Assembly: GCA_030620925.1 (NCBI GenBank)
Contig: JAUXIQ010000032.1
Location: 1 to 10,750 of the forward strand
DNA: 10,750 nt
Reading direction: 5' to 3'
Source: JAUXIQ01 sp030620925 [NCBI: Nitrospinota bacterium]
GTDB taxonomy: Bacteria; JAUXIQ01
Part shown: piece after piece, positions 181 to 10,599 of the stretch
How the letters are laid out: the number at the start of each line of letters is the position of its first letter
Numbering within the stretch: position 1 is the stretch's first letter
Program-made: the position numbers and the translations under genes
The notes under the pieces: model-generated
Seen by the model: only the letters and a program-made list of their open reading frames with translations
The model's database searches: none
What the model was told of the DNA's origin: nothing

Positions 181-2244
181 TCATCCGCTGACCACCACCT
201 CGGAAAAATCGGCCACGGCCGTAAAGAGGTCGGCCACCTTGCACAGCAGTGCCAGACGATTGCGCCGCAACTCCTGGTCTTCGGCCATAACCATGACGGA
301 GTCGAAGAAACAGTCCACCGAGTCTTTCAATTCCGCTATTGCGGCCAGGGCCTCCAGGTAGTGCTCGCCCTCCAGCAGTCCGTCTAACTTAGCTTTCACC
401 TCCGAAGTTTTCGCATCGAGCTTGATCTCGGCGTCCTCAGCCAGCAGAGAATGCTTCACTTCGTCAAACCGTTCCGGGGGTATGATGTTCACAACCCTCT
501 TAAAGGTTGTGGTAAGGGCCTCGAAATCGGTCCTCCTGGAAAATTCCGCCAGCGCCTCCAGCCTCAGCTTCAATCCGGGGAGGTCATCGAAACCCGCTCC
601 CATGGCCGCATTCACCAGATCATATCTGTAATCCTCGGAGAGGAACAGGTTTTCAATTCGTCGAGCGAAAAACTCCAGCAGCTCGGCTTTCACCTCTGTC
701 GGATTCTCCGTCTTGAGAATTTCCAGCGCTTTATCCACTGCGCCGCTGAGCGGGAAACAGTAGGCGTTATCCATAATTATATTGATGATTCCCAGGGCCT
801 GCCGCCTCAAACCGTGAGGGTCCAGGTTGCCGGTGGGCTTCATGCCGATCCCGAAACTGCCAGCCAGTGTATCCAGCTTATCGGCCAGGCTGAGCAGGGC
901 GCCGGTGTGAGTCTCCGGCAGGCTGTCCCCCGAATAGCGGGGGAGGTAGTGCTCATATATGCTTCTCGCCACTTCCTCCTTCTCGCCGGAAAGAAGCGCA
1001 TACTCCCTGCCCATGACTCCCTGGAGACCGGGGAACTCATAGACCATCTGAGTCACCAGGTCGGCCTTGCAGAGGTAAGCGGCCCGCTCCACCATATCCG
1101 GCGAGCTCACGTCCATGACCGATTGCAGGTAAAGGGCGAGCCGGCGAAAGCGCTCCATCTTCTGGTAAGAAGTACCCAGCTTCTCCTGGTACAGTACGCG
1201 CTTAAGCCCCTCCACATACTCATCCAGAGGTTTGGCTGAGTCTTCCTTAAAGAAAAACATGGCGTCCGCCAGACGGGCCCGCAGCACCTTCTCGTTCCCG
1301 TGGGCCACCACCCCTATATCCCTGGCTCTGGTGTTGCAAACGGCGATGAAGTTGGCCATCAACGCTCCGTCAGGACCCTCAACGGGAACGTAACGCTGGT
1401 GTTTCACCATCGTGGTGACCAGCACCTCACGGGGGAGTTTAAGATACTCCTCGTCGAAGCTCCCCCACACGCCCACCGGATACTCCACCAGATTGGTGAC
1501 TATGTCCAGCAGATCCTCATCCCCGGAAGCCACCCCGCCGTGAGCCGAAGCCAGCTCGTGAACAGCCTTTCTCACCATCTCTTTCCTGGTTTTATTATCC
1601 ACTATCACCGAGTTTTTGGCGGCGGCGGCTAGATAAGCTTCAGGGGTCTTTACCGCAAAGGCTTTCGGAGCCATGAACCTGTGCCCCCTGGAGAGGTTCC
1701 CGCTGGCCACGCCGCCGTATTGAAACTCTACCGTGCGGTTACCGAAAAGACAGAGCAGCCAGTGAATAGGCCGAACGAACCTGGCCTCCCCCTCCCCCCA
1801 GCGCATGGACTTGGGGAAGGGCAACTGGTTCATGAGCTCTGGAATCAGCTCCGGCAGAAGCTTATATACCTCTTTGCCCCTGTCCACCCTGGCGGCATAT
1901 AGATACTCTCCCTTGGGGGTCTCCTCAACCTCCAGCTCTTCCACGGTGACGCCGCACTTCTCGGCAAAACCCACCGCCGCCCTGGTGGGGTTCCCCTCCT
2001 GGTCGAAGGCCGCCTTTTTGGGAGGGCCGAATGTTTTGGTTACCAGCTCTTTCTGCTCCTCGGCCACGCCCTCAACCATCAGCACCAGGCGGCGTGGCGT
2101 CCCCAGTGCAACGGCCTTCCCGGCCTCTATGCGGTTCTTATCCGCCAGATCGCCCCACAGTTTTTCCATGGCCCGCAGTGCGGGGTTAAGGTAGTCGGAG
2201 GGTATCTCTTCGGTTCCGACCTCCAGCAGAAAATCCTTGCTCAT
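181..2244 (-). CDS. glyS: Glycyl-tRNA synthetase beta subunit
   Basis: This is the large subunit of the bacterial alpha2-beta2 glycyl-tRNA synthetase, which with GlyQ charges tRNA-Gly with glycine in the cytoplasm. At 687 residues it has the usual family length. Family blocks are visible in order: LLEVGTEEIP at 6-15, FPKSMRW at 143-149, RFVRPIHW at 155-162, MFFFKED at 329-335, YEFPGLQGVMGREYA at 402-416, LADKLDTLAGSFGIG at 453-467 followed by a DPHGLRRQALGI segment, and FFDSVMVMAED at 646-656. By family knowledge the middle holds an HD-like domain and the last 100 or so residues an anticodon-binding helical domain. The ATG directly follows the glyQ TAG with no spacer, and GGGAG (2250-2254), inside the end of glyQ, is its ribosome binding site. 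That layout supports translational coupling and equal subunit output. Confidence 0.98.
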   Translation of the reverse strand: MSKDFLLEVGTEEIPSDYLNPALRAMEKLWGDLADKNRIEAGKAVALGTPRRLVLMVEGVAEEQKELVTKTFGPPKKAAFDQEGNPTRAAVGFAEKCGVTVEELEVEETPKGEYLYAARVDRGKEVYKLLPELIPELMNQLPFPKSMRWGEGEARFVRPIHWLLCLFGNRTVEFQYGGVASGNLSRGHRFMAPKAFAVKTPEAYLAAAAKNSVIVDNKTRKEMVRKAVHELASAHGGVASGDEDLLDIVTNLVEYPVGVWGSFDEEYLKLPREVLVTTMVKHQRYVPVEGPDGALMANFIAVCNTRARDIGVVAHGNEKVLRARLADAMFFFKEDSAKPLDEYVEGLKRVLYQEKLGTSYQKMERFRRLALYLQSVMDVSSPDMVERAAYLCKADLVTQMVYEFPGLQGVMGREYALLSGEKEEVARSIYEHYLPRYSGDSLPETHTGALLSLADKLDTLAGSFGIGMKPTGNLDPHGLRRQALGIINIIMDNAYCFPLSGAVDKALEILKTENPTEVKAELLEFFARRIENLFLSEDYRYDLVNAAMGAGFDDLPGLKLRLEALAEFSRRTDFEALTTTFKRVVNIIPPERFDEVKHSLLAEDAEIKLDAKTSEVKAKLDGLLEGEHYLEALAAIAELKDSVDCFFDSVMVMAEDQELRRNRLALLCKVADLFTAVADFSEVVVSG

Positions 2245-3138
2245 CTATTCTCCCGTGTCGAACTTTCCCATCAGGGGATAGTCCATCTGTTGGCGCTGGT
2301 TTATATATTTCTCGCTGCACCCCCGGGCCAGGTTCCTCACCCGCCCGATATACCCCGTACGCTCGGTAACGCTGATGGCGCCCCTGGCGTCCAGCAGGTT
2401 GAAGGTGTGTGAGCATTTCAGGCAGTAGTCATACGCGGGGAGCACCAGGTCCTCATCAATAAGTCGCTGCGATTCGGCCTCATACATGTCGAAGAGTTTG
2501 AACAGCATATCCACGTCGGCCTGGTGAAAGTTATAATGGGAGAACTCCACTTCGCTCTGATGGTGCACGTCTCCGTACTTCACCGCGCCGTCCCAGACCA
2601 GGTCGTAGACATTGTCCACGTCCTGGAGGTACATGGCGATTCGTTCGAGTCCGTAGGTTATCTCCACCGGAATCGGCTTGAGGTCCAGGCCCCCGGCCTG
2701 CTGGAAGTAGGTGAACTGGGTTATCTCCATGCCGTCAAGCCAGACCTCCCATCCCAGGCCCCAGGCCCCCAGGGTGGGCGCTTCCCAATCGTCTTCAACG
2801 AACCTGATGTCGTGGCTCAAGTGGTCGATGCCCAGGTGGCGCAAGCTCTCCAGATATATTTCCTGAACGTCCAGGGGCGATGGCTTGATGATAACCTGAT
2901 ATTGATAGTAATGCTGGAGGCGGTTGGGATTTTCTCCGTAGCGGCCGTCGGTAGGCCGCCGCGACGGCTCGACGTAGCCTACCTTCCAGGGCTCGGGGCC
3001 CAGGACGCGCAGGAACGTGGCGGGGTTCATGGTCCCCGCTCCCTTCTCCACGTCGTAGGGCTGCTGGATCACGCACCCCCTATCGGCCCAGAATTTCTCC
3101 AGGGCCATCACCAGTTGTTGAAAGGTCAGCTTTTCCAT
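2245..3138 (-). CDS. glyQ: Glycyl-tRNA synthetase alpha subunit
   Basis: This is the catalytic small subunit of tetrameric glycyl-tRNA synthetase, a class II enzyme that forms glycyl-adenylate. Its 297 residues match the family. The N-terminal [18 protein letters not shown] is followed by the [20 protein letters not shown] block (25-44). The class II motif 2 region [18 protein letters not shown] spans 56-73 and the motif 3-like [12 protein letters not shown] spans 161-172 with Arg166. A C-terminal cysteine-containing segment ([19 protein letters not shown], 238-256) is also family-typical. The ATG at 3136-3138 has only a weak purine stretch upstream (GAGTTAG), so translation may depend partly on readthrough from cimA. 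glyQ lies 39 bases downstream of cimA and directly abuts glyS. No T-box sequence or specifier hairpin fits in the short upstream gap, unlike many clostridial glyQS operons. Confidence 0.98.
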
Positions 3139-3177
3139 CTAACTCAGATACCCGGTTAAAAGTTGTCGAATACGGCC

Positions 3178-4773
<1,596 letters not shown>

Positions 4774-4802: not shown

Positions 4803-6023
4803 TCAATCGTCTTCGCCGATTTTAAAAGACTCGTGCAGCGCCCTCACCGCAAGCTCCGAATACTTGCTGTCTATGACGCAGGAAACCTTTATCTCCGAGG
4901 TGCTGATCATTTGTATGTTTATGTTCTCTTCGGCCAGAGTCTGGAACATCTGGGCCGCCACCCCGGAATGGCTCTGCATGCCCACCCCCACGATGGACAC
5001 TTTGGCAATGCTCTCATTGATGGTCACGCCGCCCGCACCGATCTCTTCAGCTATTTTCTTTACCTCACCCTCCACCTTGCTCACATCACCTCCGGGGACG
5101 GTGAAGGAGATATCGGTAATGCCTGCGGTGCTCACGTTCTGGATGATCATATCCACCACCACACCGGCATTAGCTATCTGCCCGAAAATTTTTCCGGCGA
5201 TGCCCGGTTTATCGGGCACGAGGGCTATGGTTAGTTTGGCCTGTTTCTTATCACAGGTAACACCCGATACCACTACTTTTTCCATGCTTTCGTCTTCGTT
5301 GGTCACCAAGGTTCCACTGCCCTCCTTAAAAGTAGATTTAACCAGCAGGGGCACATCGTATTTCTTGGCGAATTCCACCGCCCTGTTATGAAGCACCTTG
5401 GCCCCCAGGCTGGCCATCTCCAGCATCTCATCATAGGATACCTTATCCAGTTTCCTGGCGTTGCTCACCGTGTTGGGGTCGGCGGAAAAGACCCCCTCCA
5501 CGTCCGTGTATATAATACACAAATCCGCCTTCAGGGCGGCGGCCAGGGCCACGGCCGTGGTATCCGACCCTCCGCGCCCGAAGGTGGTGACGTTCTGGTT
5601 GCTGCTTATACCCTGGAAACCGGCCACTACCACTACTTTACCCTCTTCGAGCGTCTTGCGGATGGGCTCCGCATCTATATGGGTGATGCGTGCCCTGGTG
5701 TGCGCGTCGTCGGTCTGTATGCCCACCTGTCGGCCGGTGAAGGAGCGGGCGGGATAGCCCATGGTCTGAAGGGCTATGGCCGCCAGGGCGGCTGTTACGC
5801 GTTCGCCAGAGGACATGAGAAGGTCCATCTCCCTTTCGTCCGGGAGGTCCGTGATCTCACTGGCCAGGCTGATGAGTTTATCCGTCTCGCCGGCCATGGC
5901 GGATACCACCGCTACGACGTCGTTTCCCTCGTCCCTGGCCTCAGCTATCTTTTTGGCCACTTCCTTGATGCGCTCTATACTGCCCACGGAAGTGCCGCCG
6001 TATTTATGAACCATCAAACCCAA
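4803..6023 (-). CDS. lysC: Aspartate kinase, monofunctional, two ACT domains
   Basis: This enzyme phosphorylates aspartate to 4-phospho-aspartate, the committed step to lysine, threonine, methionine and isoleucine. The 406 residues hold an amino-acid-kinase domain (about 1-240) with KYGGTSVGS (7-15), SAMAGETD (41-48), [16 protein letters not shown] (149-164) and [12 protein letters not shown] (172-183). Two ACT domains follow (about 264-325 and 341-403), so feedback control by lysine and/or threonine is expected. The start is TTG at 6021-6023, which gives [10 protein letters not shown] and fits the usual MALIVQKYGG-like N-terminus. GGAG lies 10 bases upstream (6034-6037). An ATG at 6012-6014 would remove three residues and cannot be excluded. 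Met247, at the domain boundary (5283-5285), could be an internal start for a separate regulatory subunit, as in some Gram-positive aspartokinases. The gene lies 19 bases downstream of the apgM-family gene. Confidence 0.97.
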
Positions 6024-6042: not shown

Positions 6043-7239
6043 TCACATCGCTAAAAAGAAATCCATCAATTGATACCCGTTTTTGAACTCCCTTACGGGT
6101 GCGGTCGCCAGCTCTTCGCTGAAAGCTTCCCGGCCCTCGGAGCTCACTCCCGTGCCGCAAATGGCGAAGGGGACGGGATCGGCACTATGCGTCCTTATGG
6201 ATAAAGGCGTGTAGTGATCGGGCATAACCAGCACCCGATGGTCCCCCAGGGCTCGAAGTCCGTCCATCATGCGGCCCACCACCAGCTCGTCGAAATCCTC
6301 TATGGCTTTAACTTTCTTTTCCGGCTCTCCTTCGTGGCCCGTCTCATCAGGCGCTTCAACGTGAAGATAGAGGAAATCTCCCTCCTCGAGGGCTTCCAGT
6401 CCGTAATCCACTTTGCCCCGATAATTGGTATCCAGGTAGCCGGTGGCCCCGGGCACTTCGATGGTCTTCAACCCCAGACAGCGCGCTATGCCCATTATAA
6501 GGTCCACGGCGGCTATGACCGCGCCGTCCAAACCATGCTTCTCCTTGAAGGAAGGCATCTGCGGGGCCCTGCCGCAGCCCCATAGCCAGACGCTGTCCGC
6601 GGCGTTCTTCCCTTCCTCCCTCCGTTTGCGGTTGACGGGGTGTTCTTTCAGCCACTGCCGGCTGCGCTCCATGAGCTCTAACATCTCCCCGCTCCCTTCG
6701 CCGCCGGGCAGGTATTCTACCACAGGCCTGGTGAGTATGTCGTGGGGGGGCGTGAGCTCAAGCTGCTCCGGCCCACCTTTCCAGACGGTGAGGTGGCGGT
6801 AGCTTTTACCGGGGTAAAACTTTATATATTCCGTCCCCAGCTCCCGCTGCAATCCGGTTATCAGGGTCGAAGCCTCGGAGTCGGTTATATGGCCGGCGCT
6901 GTAATCCTCCATTATGGTAACCCCGGCCCGCACCCCCAGAGTCACCAGGTTGCAGCGGAAGGCCACTTCATCGGGGCCCAGCTCCACCCCCATGCTAGCG
7001 GCCTCAAGGGGCGCCCTGCCGCTGTAATAACGGTGGGGGTCGTAGCCCAGGATGCTCAGGTTGGCCACGTCGCTGCCGGGGGACATGCCGTCCGGTATGG
7101 TGTGCGCACTGCCTGTCATGCCCTCCTTGACCAGGGCGTCCATGTTGGGCGTGTGCGCCACCTGCAGGGGAGTCCTGTCTCCCAATTGCGGGCACGGCTC
7201 GTCGGCCATGCCGTCACCTATTAACACCACGTATTTCAA
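6043..7239 (-). CDS. apgM: ApgM-family protein, probable non-orthologous homoserine kinase
   Basis: This 398-residue protein belongs to the alkaline-phosphatase superfamily branch of archaeal-type cofactor-independent phosphoglycerate mutases. Visible active-site blocks are GDGMADEP (8-15, Asp9), PGSDVANLSILGYDP (54-68, candidate nucleophile Ser56), APDETGHEGEP (296-306, Asp298 and His302), PDHYTPLS (340-347, Asp341 and His342) and THSADPVPF (350-358, His351). By sequence alone it would be called phosphoglycerate mutase (3-PG to 2-PG). However, it sits between hom and lysC. The related subfamily described by TIGR02535 has been proposed from gene context to phosphorylate homoserine where classical ThrB is missing. 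The reader should treat both functions as open, with the threonine role favoured. The start is TTG at 7237-7239 (MKYVVLIGDGM, family-typical), with GAGG six bases upstream. lysC follows after 19 bases. Confidence 0.88.
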   Translation of the reverse strand: MKYVVLIGDGMADEPCPQLGDRTPLQVAHTPNMDALVKEGMTGSAHTIPDGMSPGSDVANLSILGYDPHRYYSGRAPLEAASMGVELGPDEVAFRCNLVTLGVRAGVTIMEDYSAGHITDSEASTLITGLQRELGTEYIKFYPGKSYRHLTVWKGGPEQLELTPPHDILTRPVVEYLPGGEGSGEMLELMERSRQWLKEHPVNRKRREEGKNAADSVWLWGCGRAPQMPSFKEKHGLDGAVIAAVDLIMGIARCLGLKTIEVPGATGYLDTNYRGKVDYGLEALEEGDFLYLHVEAPDETGHEGEPEKKVKAIEDFDELVVGRMMDGLRALGDHRVLVMPDHYTPLSIRTHSADPVPFAICGTGVSSEGREAFSEELATAPVREFKNGYQLMDFFLAM

Positions 7240-7298: not shown

Positions 7299-8612
7299 TC
7301 ATCCGGCCCTCTCGTTTTCCACGCGGATCAGCATGGTCTCCTCGAGGACGAAATCGAACCTGGTTATCTCTCGCAGCGACCGCTGAACGTCCTCCTCCCG
7401 GGCCTTATGAGTCATCATCACCAACGGCACTGCGCCGCCTTCCCGCCTCCCCTTCTGGATGACGGAGGCGATGCTTATACCGGCAGCGCCCAGTATACCT
7501 GAAATCCGGGAGAGCACCCCGGACTTGTCCATGACTGTGAAACGAAGATAGTATTCGGTCTCTATATCATTAATGTCCCTCACCCTGAGTCCGTTTTGAG
7601 GATCCCGGTTGCGGGTGGGAGGGGGGAGCCTCTCCTTAACGCCCTTGAGCAGTTCCCGGCTGATTTCTATCACGTCACCCATGACCGCGCTTGCCGTGGG
7701 CAGCGAGCCGGCTCCCTGTCCGATGAGGGTGTTGGGCCCTGCCATGTCCCCTATCACGTGGACGGCGTTGTATACCCCGCTCACTTTCGCCAGCAGCTCG
7801 TCCTCGGGGATAAGGGCCGGGTGCACCCGTAACTCCACTTCGCCGCCCACACGCTTGGCCACGGCCAGAAGTTTTATCCGGTAACCGAACTCGCGGGCGT
7901 ATTGGATATCCAGCGGGGTGATATCGGTTATTCCCCTGCAAAAAACAGCTTCCAGGTCGAGAGGGATGCCGAAAGCCAGCGAAGCCAGAATGGCTATCTT
8001 ATGCGCCGAATCTATTCCCTCGATATCGTAAGTGGGGTCCGCCTCAGCGTAACCCAGGACCTGCGCTTCCTCAAGCACCTCGCCAAACGGCCTTCCCTCC
8101 TCAGCCATTTTGCTGAGTATGTAGTTGGCGGTACCGTTGACGATCCCCTGGATGGCCTGAAACCTGTTGGCGGGGAAGCCTTCCCGGATTGCCCTGATAA
8201 TGGGTATGCCTCCTCCCACACTGGCCTCGAAACCTATGGTCACCCCGTTATCGGCTGCGGCCTCGAACAGCTCTTCCCCGTGATGCGCCAGCAGGGCCTT
8301 GTTGGCGGTAACCACGTGTTTACCGTTCTCCACCGCCCGGAGGATGAAGCTCCTCGCCGGTTCCAGGCCGCCGATCAATTCTATGACTATGTCGATGTCC
8401 GGCCCGTCCAGCACCTCATCGGCGTTGGTGGTAAGCATCTCCTTTTCCACCTCCAGGCCCCGGTCGCTATCGATATCCAGGTCGGCTATCATTTTCAGCA
8501 CCAGGGAGGCGCCCAGGCGTTGGTCGATGACCGGGGAGTTCCCCTGGAAAATCTTCACCACGCCGCTGCCCACCGTTCCGAAACCGATGAGGCCCACGTT
8601 CACCTGTTTCAC
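7299..8612 (-). CDS. hom: Homoserine dehydrogenase with C-terminal ACT domain
   Basis: This enzyme reduces aspartate semialdehyde to homoserine with NAD(P)H, the branch point to threonine and methionine. The 437 residues match the monofunctional Hom family. The Rossmann nucleotide-binding motif GFGTVGSG is at 10-17. TANKALLA at 102-109 contains the conserved Lys105. EASVGGGIP is at 129-137, and the family signature GYAEADPTYDIEGIDSAHK spans 187-205. An ACT domain occupies about 354-430 (YYLRFTVMDKSGVLSRISG), so allosteric control, classically by threonine, is likely. The start is GTG at 8610-8612, with a strong GGAGG (8620-8624) seven bases upstream. hom follows lipA after 61 bases and precedes the apgM-family gene by 59 bases, so it probably heads the aspartate-family operon or continues a lipA transcript. 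Confidence 0.97.
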   Translation of the reverse strand: MKQVNVGLIGFGTVGSGVVKIFQGNSPVIDQRLGASLVLKMIADLDIDSDRGLEVEKEMLTTNADEVLDGPDIDIVIELIGGLEPARSFILRAVENGKHVVTANKALLAHHGEELFEAAADNGVTIGFEASVGGGIPIIRAIREGFPANRFQAIQGIVNGTANYILSKMAEEGRPFGEVLEEAQVLGYAEADPTYDIEGIDSAHKIAILASLAFGIPLDLEAVFCRGITDITPLDIQYAREFGYRIKLLAVAKRVGGEVELRVHPALIPEDELLAKVSGVYNAVHVIGDMAGPNTLIGQGAGSLPTASAVMGDVIEISRELLKGVKERLPPPTRNRDPQNGLRVRDINDIETEYYLRFTVMDKSGVLSRISGILGAAGISIASVIQKGRREGGAVPLVMMTHKAREEDVQRSLREITRFDFVLEETMLIRVENERAG

Positions 8613-8673: not shown

Positions 8674-9534
8674 CTACCCCGGCTTCTTCTCCAGCGCCTC
8701 TTCGGCGTTGAAAGAGCTCCTCACCAGTGGAGCCGAGGCCACGTACAGGAAACCCAGCTTCTCTCCTTCCTGCTTATAATATTCGAACTTATCCGGGTGT
8801 ATATATTCCACCACGGGCAGATGCTCCTTCGAAGGCCGCAGATACTGACCGATGGTGAGCATGTCGCAGCCGGCCTCCCGCAAATCGTTCAGGACACCGA
8901 GGACCTCGCCCTCGCTCTCACCAAATCCCACCATGAGGCCCGACTTGGTGAACAGGCCCCCGCCCGATTCTTTTGCACAGCTCAGCACCCCGAGGGAGCG
9001 CCGATACTCCGCCTGTGGCCTCACCGCAGTGTACAGCCTGGGCACCGTCTCCAGGTTGTGGTTGAAAATGTGAGGCCCGCTTTGAAGCACAATTTCCAGA
9101 GCTTCGAGATTCCCTTGAAAATCGGGTGTGAGCACCTCGAGGGTCGCTTCCGGGAGTTCTTCCTTGAGGGCCAGGACCGTCGCTGCAAAATGGGAAGCAC
9201 CGCCGTCCGGCAGGTCGTCCCTGGGGACGGAGGTGATCACCACGTGCTTTAATTTCAACTGGCGGGCGGCATCGGCGATCTTCGACGGCTCCTCCCGGTC
9301 CAGGGCCTGCGGACTCCCATCGGCCACTGCGCAGAAACTGCAGTTTCTGGTGCAGACGTCCCCCATAATCATAAACGTGGCCGTAGGTTTGGAGAAACAC
9401 TGGAAGATATTGGGGCACATGGCCGATTCACAGACGGTGTGAAGACCTTTTTCCCTCAAAGCGGCCTTCACCTCATGTATTTCAGAGGAGCGGGAATATC
9501 GCTGTCTCAGCCACGGGGGCAATCTGTTGTTCAT
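8674..9534 (-). CDS. lipA: Lipoyl synthase (radical SAM)
   Basis: LipA inserts two sulfur atoms into octanoyl groups on lipoyl carrier proteins (2-oxoacid dehydrogenase E2 or glycine cleavage H protein). The 286 residues are of normal length. The auxiliary iron-sulfur cluster motif is Cys35-X4-Cys40-X5-Cys46 (TVCESAMCPN). The radical-SAM motif is Cys61-X3-Cys65-X2-Cys68 (GDVCTRNCSFCAV). The C-terminal RSSFNAEE (272-279) supplies the serine that ligates the auxiliary cluster in this family. VITSVPRDDLPDGGA (99-113) and TIGQYLRPSKEHLPV (227-241) are further LipA hallmarks. The ATG at 9532-9534 gives the usual PPWLR N-terminus. The ribosome binding site is weak: GGACGGG lies about nine bases upstream. 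No lipB or lipoate ligase is in the window. The gene has its own promoter-like elements and a structured leader upstream. Confidence 0.97.
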   Translation of the reverse strand: MNNRLPPWLRQRYSRSSEIHEVKAALREKGLHTVCESAMCPNIFQCFSKPTATFMIMGDVCTRNCSFCAVADGSPQALDREEPSKIADAARQLKLKHVVITSVPRDDLPDGGASHFAATVLALKEELPEATLEVLTPDFQGNLEALEIVLQSGPHIFNHNLETVPRLYTAVRPQAEYRRSLGVLSCAKESGGGLFTKSGLMVGFGESEGEVLGVLNDLREAGCDMLTIGQYLRPSKEHLPVVEYIHPDKFEYYKQEGEKLGFLYVASAPLVRSSFNAEEALEKKPG

Positions 9535-9732: not shown

Positions 9733-10599
9733 TTAATAAATTATCCTCTCTAAAAAACTTCCCAGGCCCGCCTCCCCGCCAATAGGCATGATGTGTATTC
9801 CCTTGACGGAATCCCTTATACGAGTCACAAACTCCGCGGCGATGTCCATACCCTCTTCCACAGAATCGGGCGAGACTTCGAGTCTCTTTATGATGCTCTC
9901 CGGAAGGGGTTTGTTGAGAAGCTTCTCGCTCATGAACTTGGCCATACCCACTGAGCGCAAGGGGGTGATCCCCACCAGAAAGCGCACACCGGTCTCGCTT
10001 TCGAGCTTCATGATAGTCTCCACCATTTCCATGGAGAAAACCGGCTGCGTCTGTATATATCCCGCTCCGGCTTCTATCTTCTTTTTCAGCTTCATTACCT
10101 GGAGTTCCATGGGGTCGGCATAGGGGTTAAAAACAGCTCCGGCATTGAAACCGGTTGCCCCTTGCAGCGGATTTCCCATGGAGTCCGTGCCCCGCCCCAG
10201 TTCTCTCATAAATTCCAATAACTGCACGGAATCGAGGTCGAAAACCCCTTTAGCATTGGGGTGATCTCCCAGAGCTGGATGATCGCCGGTCATCACGCAG
10301 ACGTTTCTGATGCCCATGGCCCATGCCCCCAACAAGTCTGACTGCAGGGCGATACGATTTCGATCCCTGCAACAAACCTGCATGACCGGCTCGTGCCCGT
10401 AAGCTTTAAGCAGAGAGCAGGCGGACAGGGAGCTCATGCGCATGACGGCCCGCTGATTATCGGTGATGTTTATAGCATCGACCTTCCCCCTCACCGAATC
10501 GGCCAAATCCATCATATTTTCTATGTCCGCGCCCTTGGGCGGAGATATTTCAACAGTCACCACCCTCTCGCCTGAAGCTATCTTCTCCTTAAAACCCAT
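9733..10599 (-). CDS. metF: Methylenetetrahydrofolate reductase, short MetF type
   Basis: MetF reduces 5,10-methylene-tetrahydrofolate to 5-methyl-tetrahydrofolate, feeding methionine synthesis or, in acetogens and relatives, the methyl branch of the Wood-Ljungdahl pathway. The 288-residue FAD-binding barrel shows VEISPPKG (16-23) with the catalytic-type Glu17, NITDNQRA (44-51), CRDRNRIALQSDLLGA (77-92), VMTGDHP (102-108) and YIQTQPVF (181-188). The start ATG at 10597-10599 has GGAG (10607-10610) seven bases upstream. The short form is typical of anaerobes, where it often works with a zinc-binding MetV partner; no metV is visible inside the window. lipA follows 198 bases downstream behind its own promoters. 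An exact biochemical partner or electron donor cannot be told from this sequence. Confidence 0.93.
   Translation of the reverse strand: MGFKEKIASGERVVTVEISPPKGADIENMMDLADSVRGKVDAINITDNQRAVMRMSSLSACSLLKAYGHEPVMQVCCRDRNRIALQSDLLGAWAMGIRNVCVMTGDHPALGDHPNAKGVFDLDSVQLLEFMRELGRGTDSMGNPLQGATGFNAGAVFNPYADPMELQVMKLKKKIEAGAGYIQTQPVFSMEMVETIMKLESETGVRFLVGITPLRSVGMAKFMSEKLLNKPLPESIIKRLEVSPDSVEEGMDIAAEFVTRIRDSVKGIHIMPIGGEAGLGSFLERIIY

Follow-up and report, generated by a model that had tools for sequence, protein, structure and literature searches.

What reaction does a protein of the phosphoglycerate mutase (PGM) family carry out when its gene lies between hom and lysC? The window, that is, the whole stretch of 10,750 nucleotides analysed here, comes from a Nitrospinota bacterium and holds such a gene, which an earlier note on the bare sequence had placed in the homoserine kinase position. 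The genes are arranged on one strand in the order lipA, hom, apgM-like gene, lysC, cimA, glyQ and glyS, with the following coordinates.

6043..7239, minus strand: ApgM-family protein of the threonine clade (TIGR02535 / ThrB2 type), 398 aa, TTG start (ORF, profile scores, alignment, tree, model)
7299..8612, minus strand: hom, homoserine dehydrogenase with ACT domain (NF004976, 540.7 bits)
4803..6023, minus strand: lysC, aspartate kinase (NF005155, 610 bits)
3178..4773, minus strand: cimA, citramalate synthase (TIGR00977, 819.6 bits)
2245..3138, minus strand: glyQ, glycine--tRNA ligase alpha subunit (TIGR00388, 510.9 bits)
181..2244, minus strand: glyS, glycine--tRNA ligase beta subunit (TIGR00211, 824.4 bits)
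8674..9534, minus strand: lipA, lipoyl synthase (TIGR00510, 400.4 bits)

The apgM-like gene is separated from hom by 59 bp and from lysC by 19 bp, in agreement with the operon-like spacing that the earlier note had described. A minus-strand frame at the left window edge resembles what we take to be the N-terminus of ppdK. At 9733-10599, also on the minus strand, a MetF-like protein matches positions 314-587 of a 611-position model, below its cut-off; the model is that of a bifunctional homocysteine methyltransferase / methylenetetrahydrofolate reductase. For the protein between hom and lysC, homoserine phosphotransferase is the best reading and PGM is unlikely. We give a probability of about 0.6 that it is a metal-dependent phosphotransferase of the ApgM / alkaline-phosphatase fold, making O-phosphohomoserine from homoserine for threonine synthesis.

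Scores over three family cut-offs indicate that 6043..7239 is no chance ORF. The best NCBIfam score is against NF003242, 'cofactor-independent phosphoglycerate mutase' (562 bits, cut-off 426), followed by TIGR02535, 'proposed homoserine kinase' (540.8 bits, cut-off 446.3), and TIGR00306, apgM (529.4 bits, cut-off 320). Membership of TIGR02535, on which the earlier proposal drew, is thus borne out, and the ApgM models are passed as well. Since the PGM equivalog NF003242 and TIGR02535 are both over cut-off, a single protein receives two conflicting functional names. At E up to 1e-5, Pfam finds PhosphMutase and Metalloenzyme and nothing else; the lack of a GHMP domain rules out a GHMP kinase. An AlphaFold2 model built with 46 sequences (mean pLDDT 95.4) has as its best PDB match the archaeal-type PGM 2zkt (Z 45.7, rmsd 2.3, 366 residues aligned, 31% identity) and as its second the archaeal-type PGM 3kd8 (Z 34.7, rmsd 5.2, 354 residues). 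Next among the fold neighbours come iPGMs (Z about 20 to 22), then alkaline phosphatases, nucleotide pyrophosphatases and phosphopentomutases (Z about 19 to 20). The predicted fold tells the family of the protein, not its substrate.

Comparison of 92 sequences allowed us to separate two types within this family. The alignment sets 81 clade sequences (the window protein and 80 loci, the best 80 of 100 relatives found) against 11 canonical-type ApgMs, namely T. acidophilum 3kd8 plus ten sequences that are second copies in other genomes and are labelled canonical by annotation and motif. Alignment A2 was made without L042, L079 and L028, the last of which has a stop codon within its range. The 81 fall apart from the 11 with SH-aLRT 100 in a quick tree without bootstrap, for which the program warned of long branches meeting, including Bacteroidetes rows and canonical rows. 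Members of the clade come from Bacteroidetes, Deltaproteobacteria/Syntrophaceae, Nitrospirota, archaea and others. The window protein sits on a long end branch with no resolved exact sister, in the same clade as the Bacteroidetes sequences L081, L083 and L084, which are presumed orthologues of BT2402, itself outside the tree.

The catalytic apparatus is common to both types. Asp9, Ser56, Asp298, His302, Asp341, His342 and His351 are all present in the window protein as the earlier note had numbered them, giving it the nucleophile Ser and the two-metal site of canonical ApgM, and none of the catalytic positions is lost in more than one of the 81 clade members. Position 302 is Glu in eight and His in three of the 11 canonical-type proteins. 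The difference lies in basic residues. Arg at query positions 113, 114 and 117 is found in 11/11 canonical-type sequences versus 0/81 clade members, so that the canonical D-R-R-A-G-R, shared by P. horikoshii 2zkt, reads D-Y-S-A-G-H in the window protein. Likewise, canonical R220 is replaced by W in 80/81 and canonical K295 by E in 81/81 clade members. The window protein is typical of its clade: among 72 other members, 72 positions reach a conservation of 95% or more, and it keeps 71 of these. Thirty further TIGR02535 loci contain no D-R-R-A-G-R; 25 have the clade pattern and the other five were missed by the search expression. From their conservation and charge, these basic residues probably hold phosphoglycerate in true mutases, and their loss would point to a substrate other than phosphoglycerate.

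Gene neighbourhoods link the clade to threonine synthesis. At least one of hom, thrC, lysC and thrB lies on the same strand in 58/80 loci (hom 47, lysC 18, thrC 15, thrB 5), and at L037, L038, L066, L071 and L082 the order is hom-thrC-apgM, with apgM where thrB could be expected. The remaining 22 loci, which include Methanoperedens-type archaea, have no recognised threonine gene; many loci are truncated by a contig end, and the queries did not include asd. Of the 155 genomes in the class of the Syntrophaceae genome G026 (locus L047), 118 have a TIGR02535 match over cut-off, 25 have one that falls short of it and 12 have no match at all; none of the 155 has GHMP thrB over cut-off. This class therefore shows thrB absence, not alternation between the two genes, and something must do the work of ThrB there. 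Neither TIGR02535 nor thrB is over cut-off in 37 of the 155.

We also surveyed 50 genomes with a clade member, consisting of the window's own genome and those of 49 of the 80 loci (31 loci's genomes were left out), picked by eye for diversity and size of contig before any thrB result. Threonine synthase (thrC) is over cut-off in 48/50. GHMP ThrB is over cut-off in 7/50. Among the GHMP matches below cut-off, five were translated (L092 and L094 to L097) and, judged by eye from a motif, look like IspE. Another full-scoring iPGM occurs in 36/50, as GpmI in 23 and as a second ApgM in 13 others; ten of the 13 were aligned and all have the canonical motif, G024, G035 and G045 being outside the alignment. 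Partial iPGM matches occur in 3/50 (G008, G017, G038), and no other iPGM was accepted in 11/50, among them the window's genome.

An observation in its own right concerns bacterial-type GpmI proteins of permuted order, each in one open frame, at L251:2410-4023 (G025:C18) and L252:2063-3994 (G027:C44). The half with the later metal motifs comes first and the N-terminal half with the nucleophile serine last. GpmI-like matches of permuted order were also seen on G017:C121 and G018:C10 (L253, L254), in open frames reported as 3113 and 5962 aa. One literature search gave no paper title on permuted GpmI among the matches listed.

Published work bears on the function of the family. The TIGRFAM curators proposed phosphate transfer from a donor such as PEP to homoserine, and BT2402 mutants of Bacteroides thetaiotaomicron need threonine in minimal medium, according to PMC7311316. 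The same source reports homoserine kinase as a low-confidence step in 29 of 148 prototrophs, 15 of the 29 carrying TIGR02535, and relays a personal communication that E. coli thrB is not complemented by BT2402. In PMC9026213, ThrB2 is given for 300 gut genomes, 278 of them without thrB, a largely complementary distribution, and in some Bacteroidetes species the operon has thrB in the place of thrB2. The zinc sites of BT2402 are described as conserved with a PGM structure, and a calcium site as not conserved (PMC9765024). Among the papers listed by our literature search, which include few from subscription journals, we found no biochemical proof of the TIGR02535 / ThrB2 family. Novel homoserine kinases are said to be still awaiting discovery in PMC5764234, which describes a shikimate-kinase-like one, DvMF_0971, found by mutant fitness.

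A mechanism can be proposed that is consistent with these observations. A phosphate donor (ATP, PEP or pyrophosphate) would phosphorylate Ser56 at a two-metal site formed by Asp9, Asp298, His302, Asp341, His342 and His351, and the phosphate would then be passed to the hydroxyl of homoserine, bound where a mutase would bind phosphoglycerate. The residues that replace the basic ones, which are aromatic, hydroxyl-bearing, His or Glu, would suit a zwitterionic amino acid over a highly negative phosphate ester. A tentative version of this scheme, which we hold to be possible and clearly less secure than the reaction itself, is that of an alkaline-phosphatase-superfamily homoserine phosphotransferase that works through a phosphoserine enzyme and draws its phosphate not from ATP but from, say, PEP or pyrophosphate. 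A requirement of this sort could explain both the failure of BT2402 in E. coli and the retention, by some archaea and clostridia, of the clade protein next to an ATP-dependent ThrB.

The genome of the window itself complicates the picture. Its assembly (2.5 Mb in 445 contigs, 89.47% complete, 3.55% contaminated) is the sole genome found for its order and phylum, and the relatives compared here come from other phyla. It contains thrC (contig C110, 314 bits); two proteins, on C110 and C361 (L150, L151), are over the TIGR00260 threonine synthase cut-off. No GHMP ThrB match is over cut-off in the assembly, where two pieces lie at contig ends: a ThrB-like N-terminus on C443 (L004:1-312) and a ThrB-like C-terminus on C55 (L003:1486-2103). 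For both pieces the best NCBIfam model is homoserine kinase NF002288 (39.4 and 86 bits, against a cut-off of 194 that is set for the whole protein), and the best PDB match is homoserine kinase 4p52. Aligned with five intact ThrBs, taken from seven over cut-off with L090 and L091 left out, the pieces account for the start and the end of the protein but not for its middle, and the C-terminal one has extra residues. A PAC2 gene upstream and a TGS GTPase gene downstream run in the same direction as the pieces, and the whole is arranged as it would be beside one gene cut by an assembly gap. A third TIGR00191 match, on contig C331, was rejected as ThrB, being IspE.

Contamination is one possible source of the ThrB-like pieces. 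In tetranucleotide composition, C55 correlates with the remainder of the bin at 0.917 and C443 at 0.770, as compared with 0.478 to 0.931 for 3.3-kb pieces of 22 own sequences and 0.495 to 0.775 for 31 pieces of other genomes of like G+C; on this basis C55 appears to be native, whereas C443 could be either. No plasmid matched the C-terminal piece when it was used as a query. A GHMP ThrB-like protein may share the task of the clade protein or carry it in this organism.

No GpmI and no second ApgM were found in the readable part of the assembly. PF00300 has three matches, of which the two strong ones were scanned and are below every PGM cut-off listed for them; the third, at C219, is weak. The five contigs under 3 kb in a sample of 20 read as N, so the missing middle of ThrB or a PGM could be hidden in such contigs, and together with 89.47% completeness this makes the absent PGM weak evidence. 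The earlier note had named a standard thrB elsewhere together with no other phosphoglycerate mutase as grounds against its proposal. The genome comes near this combination, with neither half firm in an incomplete assembly, and that test speaks against the kinase, though from an assembly with gaps; the residues, for their part, speak against the mutase. The premise that the family belongs to genomes without ThrB does not apply cleanly here, with no ThrB over cut-off but ThrB-like ends on C443 and C55. The proposal of O-phosphohomoserine synthesis is in turn strengthened in part, by TIGR02535 membership, threonine context, basic-residue loss, a separate clade with the Bacteroidetes type and the class that lacks thrB, and weakened in part, by the ThrB-like pieces and the lack of another convincing PGM in the readable assembly.

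Some relatives sit beside or near ThrB. A thrB gene is next to or near the clade member at L044, L051, L060 and L062 in Methanocellales and at L035 in Clostridiales. At Methanocellales locus L154, a shortened clade ApgM of about 369 aa (apgM 2403..3509) lies directly upstream of an intact thrB (3503..4408; both from first start codons, so that true starts may differ), as also seen at L153 and L155; further downstream of thrB at L154 is a coenzyme F420-0:L-glutamate ligase gene. The Methanocellales genomes G023 and G029 also hold a canonical-motif ApgM (L157, L156). In Clostridiales the order is hom-thrB-lysC-apgM (L035, L152). ThrB is over cut-off in all three Methanoperedens genomes tested, and at the one Methanoperedens locus scanned (L250) no threonine neighbour was seen, the adjoining genes encoding a lipid-synthesis protein, a DUF2111 protein and an aminotransferase. 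A simple substitute for ThrB would not be expected next to it, and the loci with both genes therefore count against plain replacement. The clade protein is not always a plain ThrB replacement, which could be explained by another phosphate donor or by an additional function.

There are possible explanations other than homoserine phosphorylation. The main rival is a threonine-linked but different or redundant role, in which the protein would serve the threonine branch without being its homoserine kinase, or would be only a redundant or conditional one; it could act as a phosphotransferase or phosphatase on O-phosphohomoserine, or as a partner alongside ThrB. The neighbouring intact thrB genes in Methanocellales, the Clostridiales row, the seven clade genomes with ThrB, the pieces in the window's genome and the E. 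coli result with BT2402 (PMC7311316) would all be accommodated by such a role. We nevertheless consider it rather improbable, given a class of 155 genomes in which ThrB is lacking throughout and TIGR02535 is widespread, and Bacteroidetes operons in which thrB takes the place of thrB2, as reported in PMC9026213 and as expected for interchangeable enzymes.

The view that the earlier note had set against its own, a true cofactor-independent phosphoglycerate mutase, here encoded within an amino-acid operon and possibly connected with the ppdK nearby, fares worse and is unlikely. The protein scores best against a PGM equivalog, a ThrB-like gene is present in pieces, and in the assembly no GpmI or second ApgM was found, the two strong histidine-phosphatase proteins being below the PGM cut-offs listed for them. 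Against a mutase stand the loss of basic residues that all 11 canonical-type ApgMs possess and the other full-scoring iPGM in most clade genomes, and an absent PGM counts for little in an assembly of this completeness with contigs read as N. It is very improbable that the protein is a phosphatase or phosphotransferase for some other metabolite with an indirect link to threonine genes. The superfamily is diverse, as the fold neighbours illustrate, and the 22 loci without a recognised threonine gene and the scanned Methanoperedens locus would fit; hom, thrC and lysC nevertheless recur as neighbours across many lineages, and BT2402 has a threonine phenotype (PMC7311316). Homoserine phosphotransferase is thus retained as the best reading.

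Homoserine kinase ranks among the most frequent gaps in the amino-acid pathways of bacteria according to PMC7311316, and databases give this one protein two incompatible names. Across the 92 sequences compared, the residue signature tells members of the threonine clade and canonical-type ApgMs apart; it could therefore help to correct annotations, and it names positions for testing function. Such correction could reach the counts in PMC2964296, in which archaeal-type iPGMs in bacteria are treated as mutases.

The proposed product, O-phosphohomoserine, is the same as that of GHMP ThrB (TIGR00191), an unrelated family for which the window protein has no match. DvMF_0971 is another replacement of ThrB, from a different family, and it complemented an E. 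coli thrB mutant whereas BT2402 did not (PMC5764234, PMC7311316). With ApgM (P. horikoshii PH0037, PDB 2zkt; T. acidophilum, PDB 3kd8) the window protein shares the fold, nucleophile and metal residues, but it is without D-R-R-A-G-R, R220 and K295. Its genome holds ThrB-like pieces, unlike those on which the proposal for TIGR02535 hyp_Hser_kinase / ThrB2 / BT2402 mainly rests, which lack ThrB; it resembles that system in its score over cut-off, its clade with Bacteroidetes and its threonine-gene neighbours. The window protein is an ordinary member of this known, biochemically unproven family.
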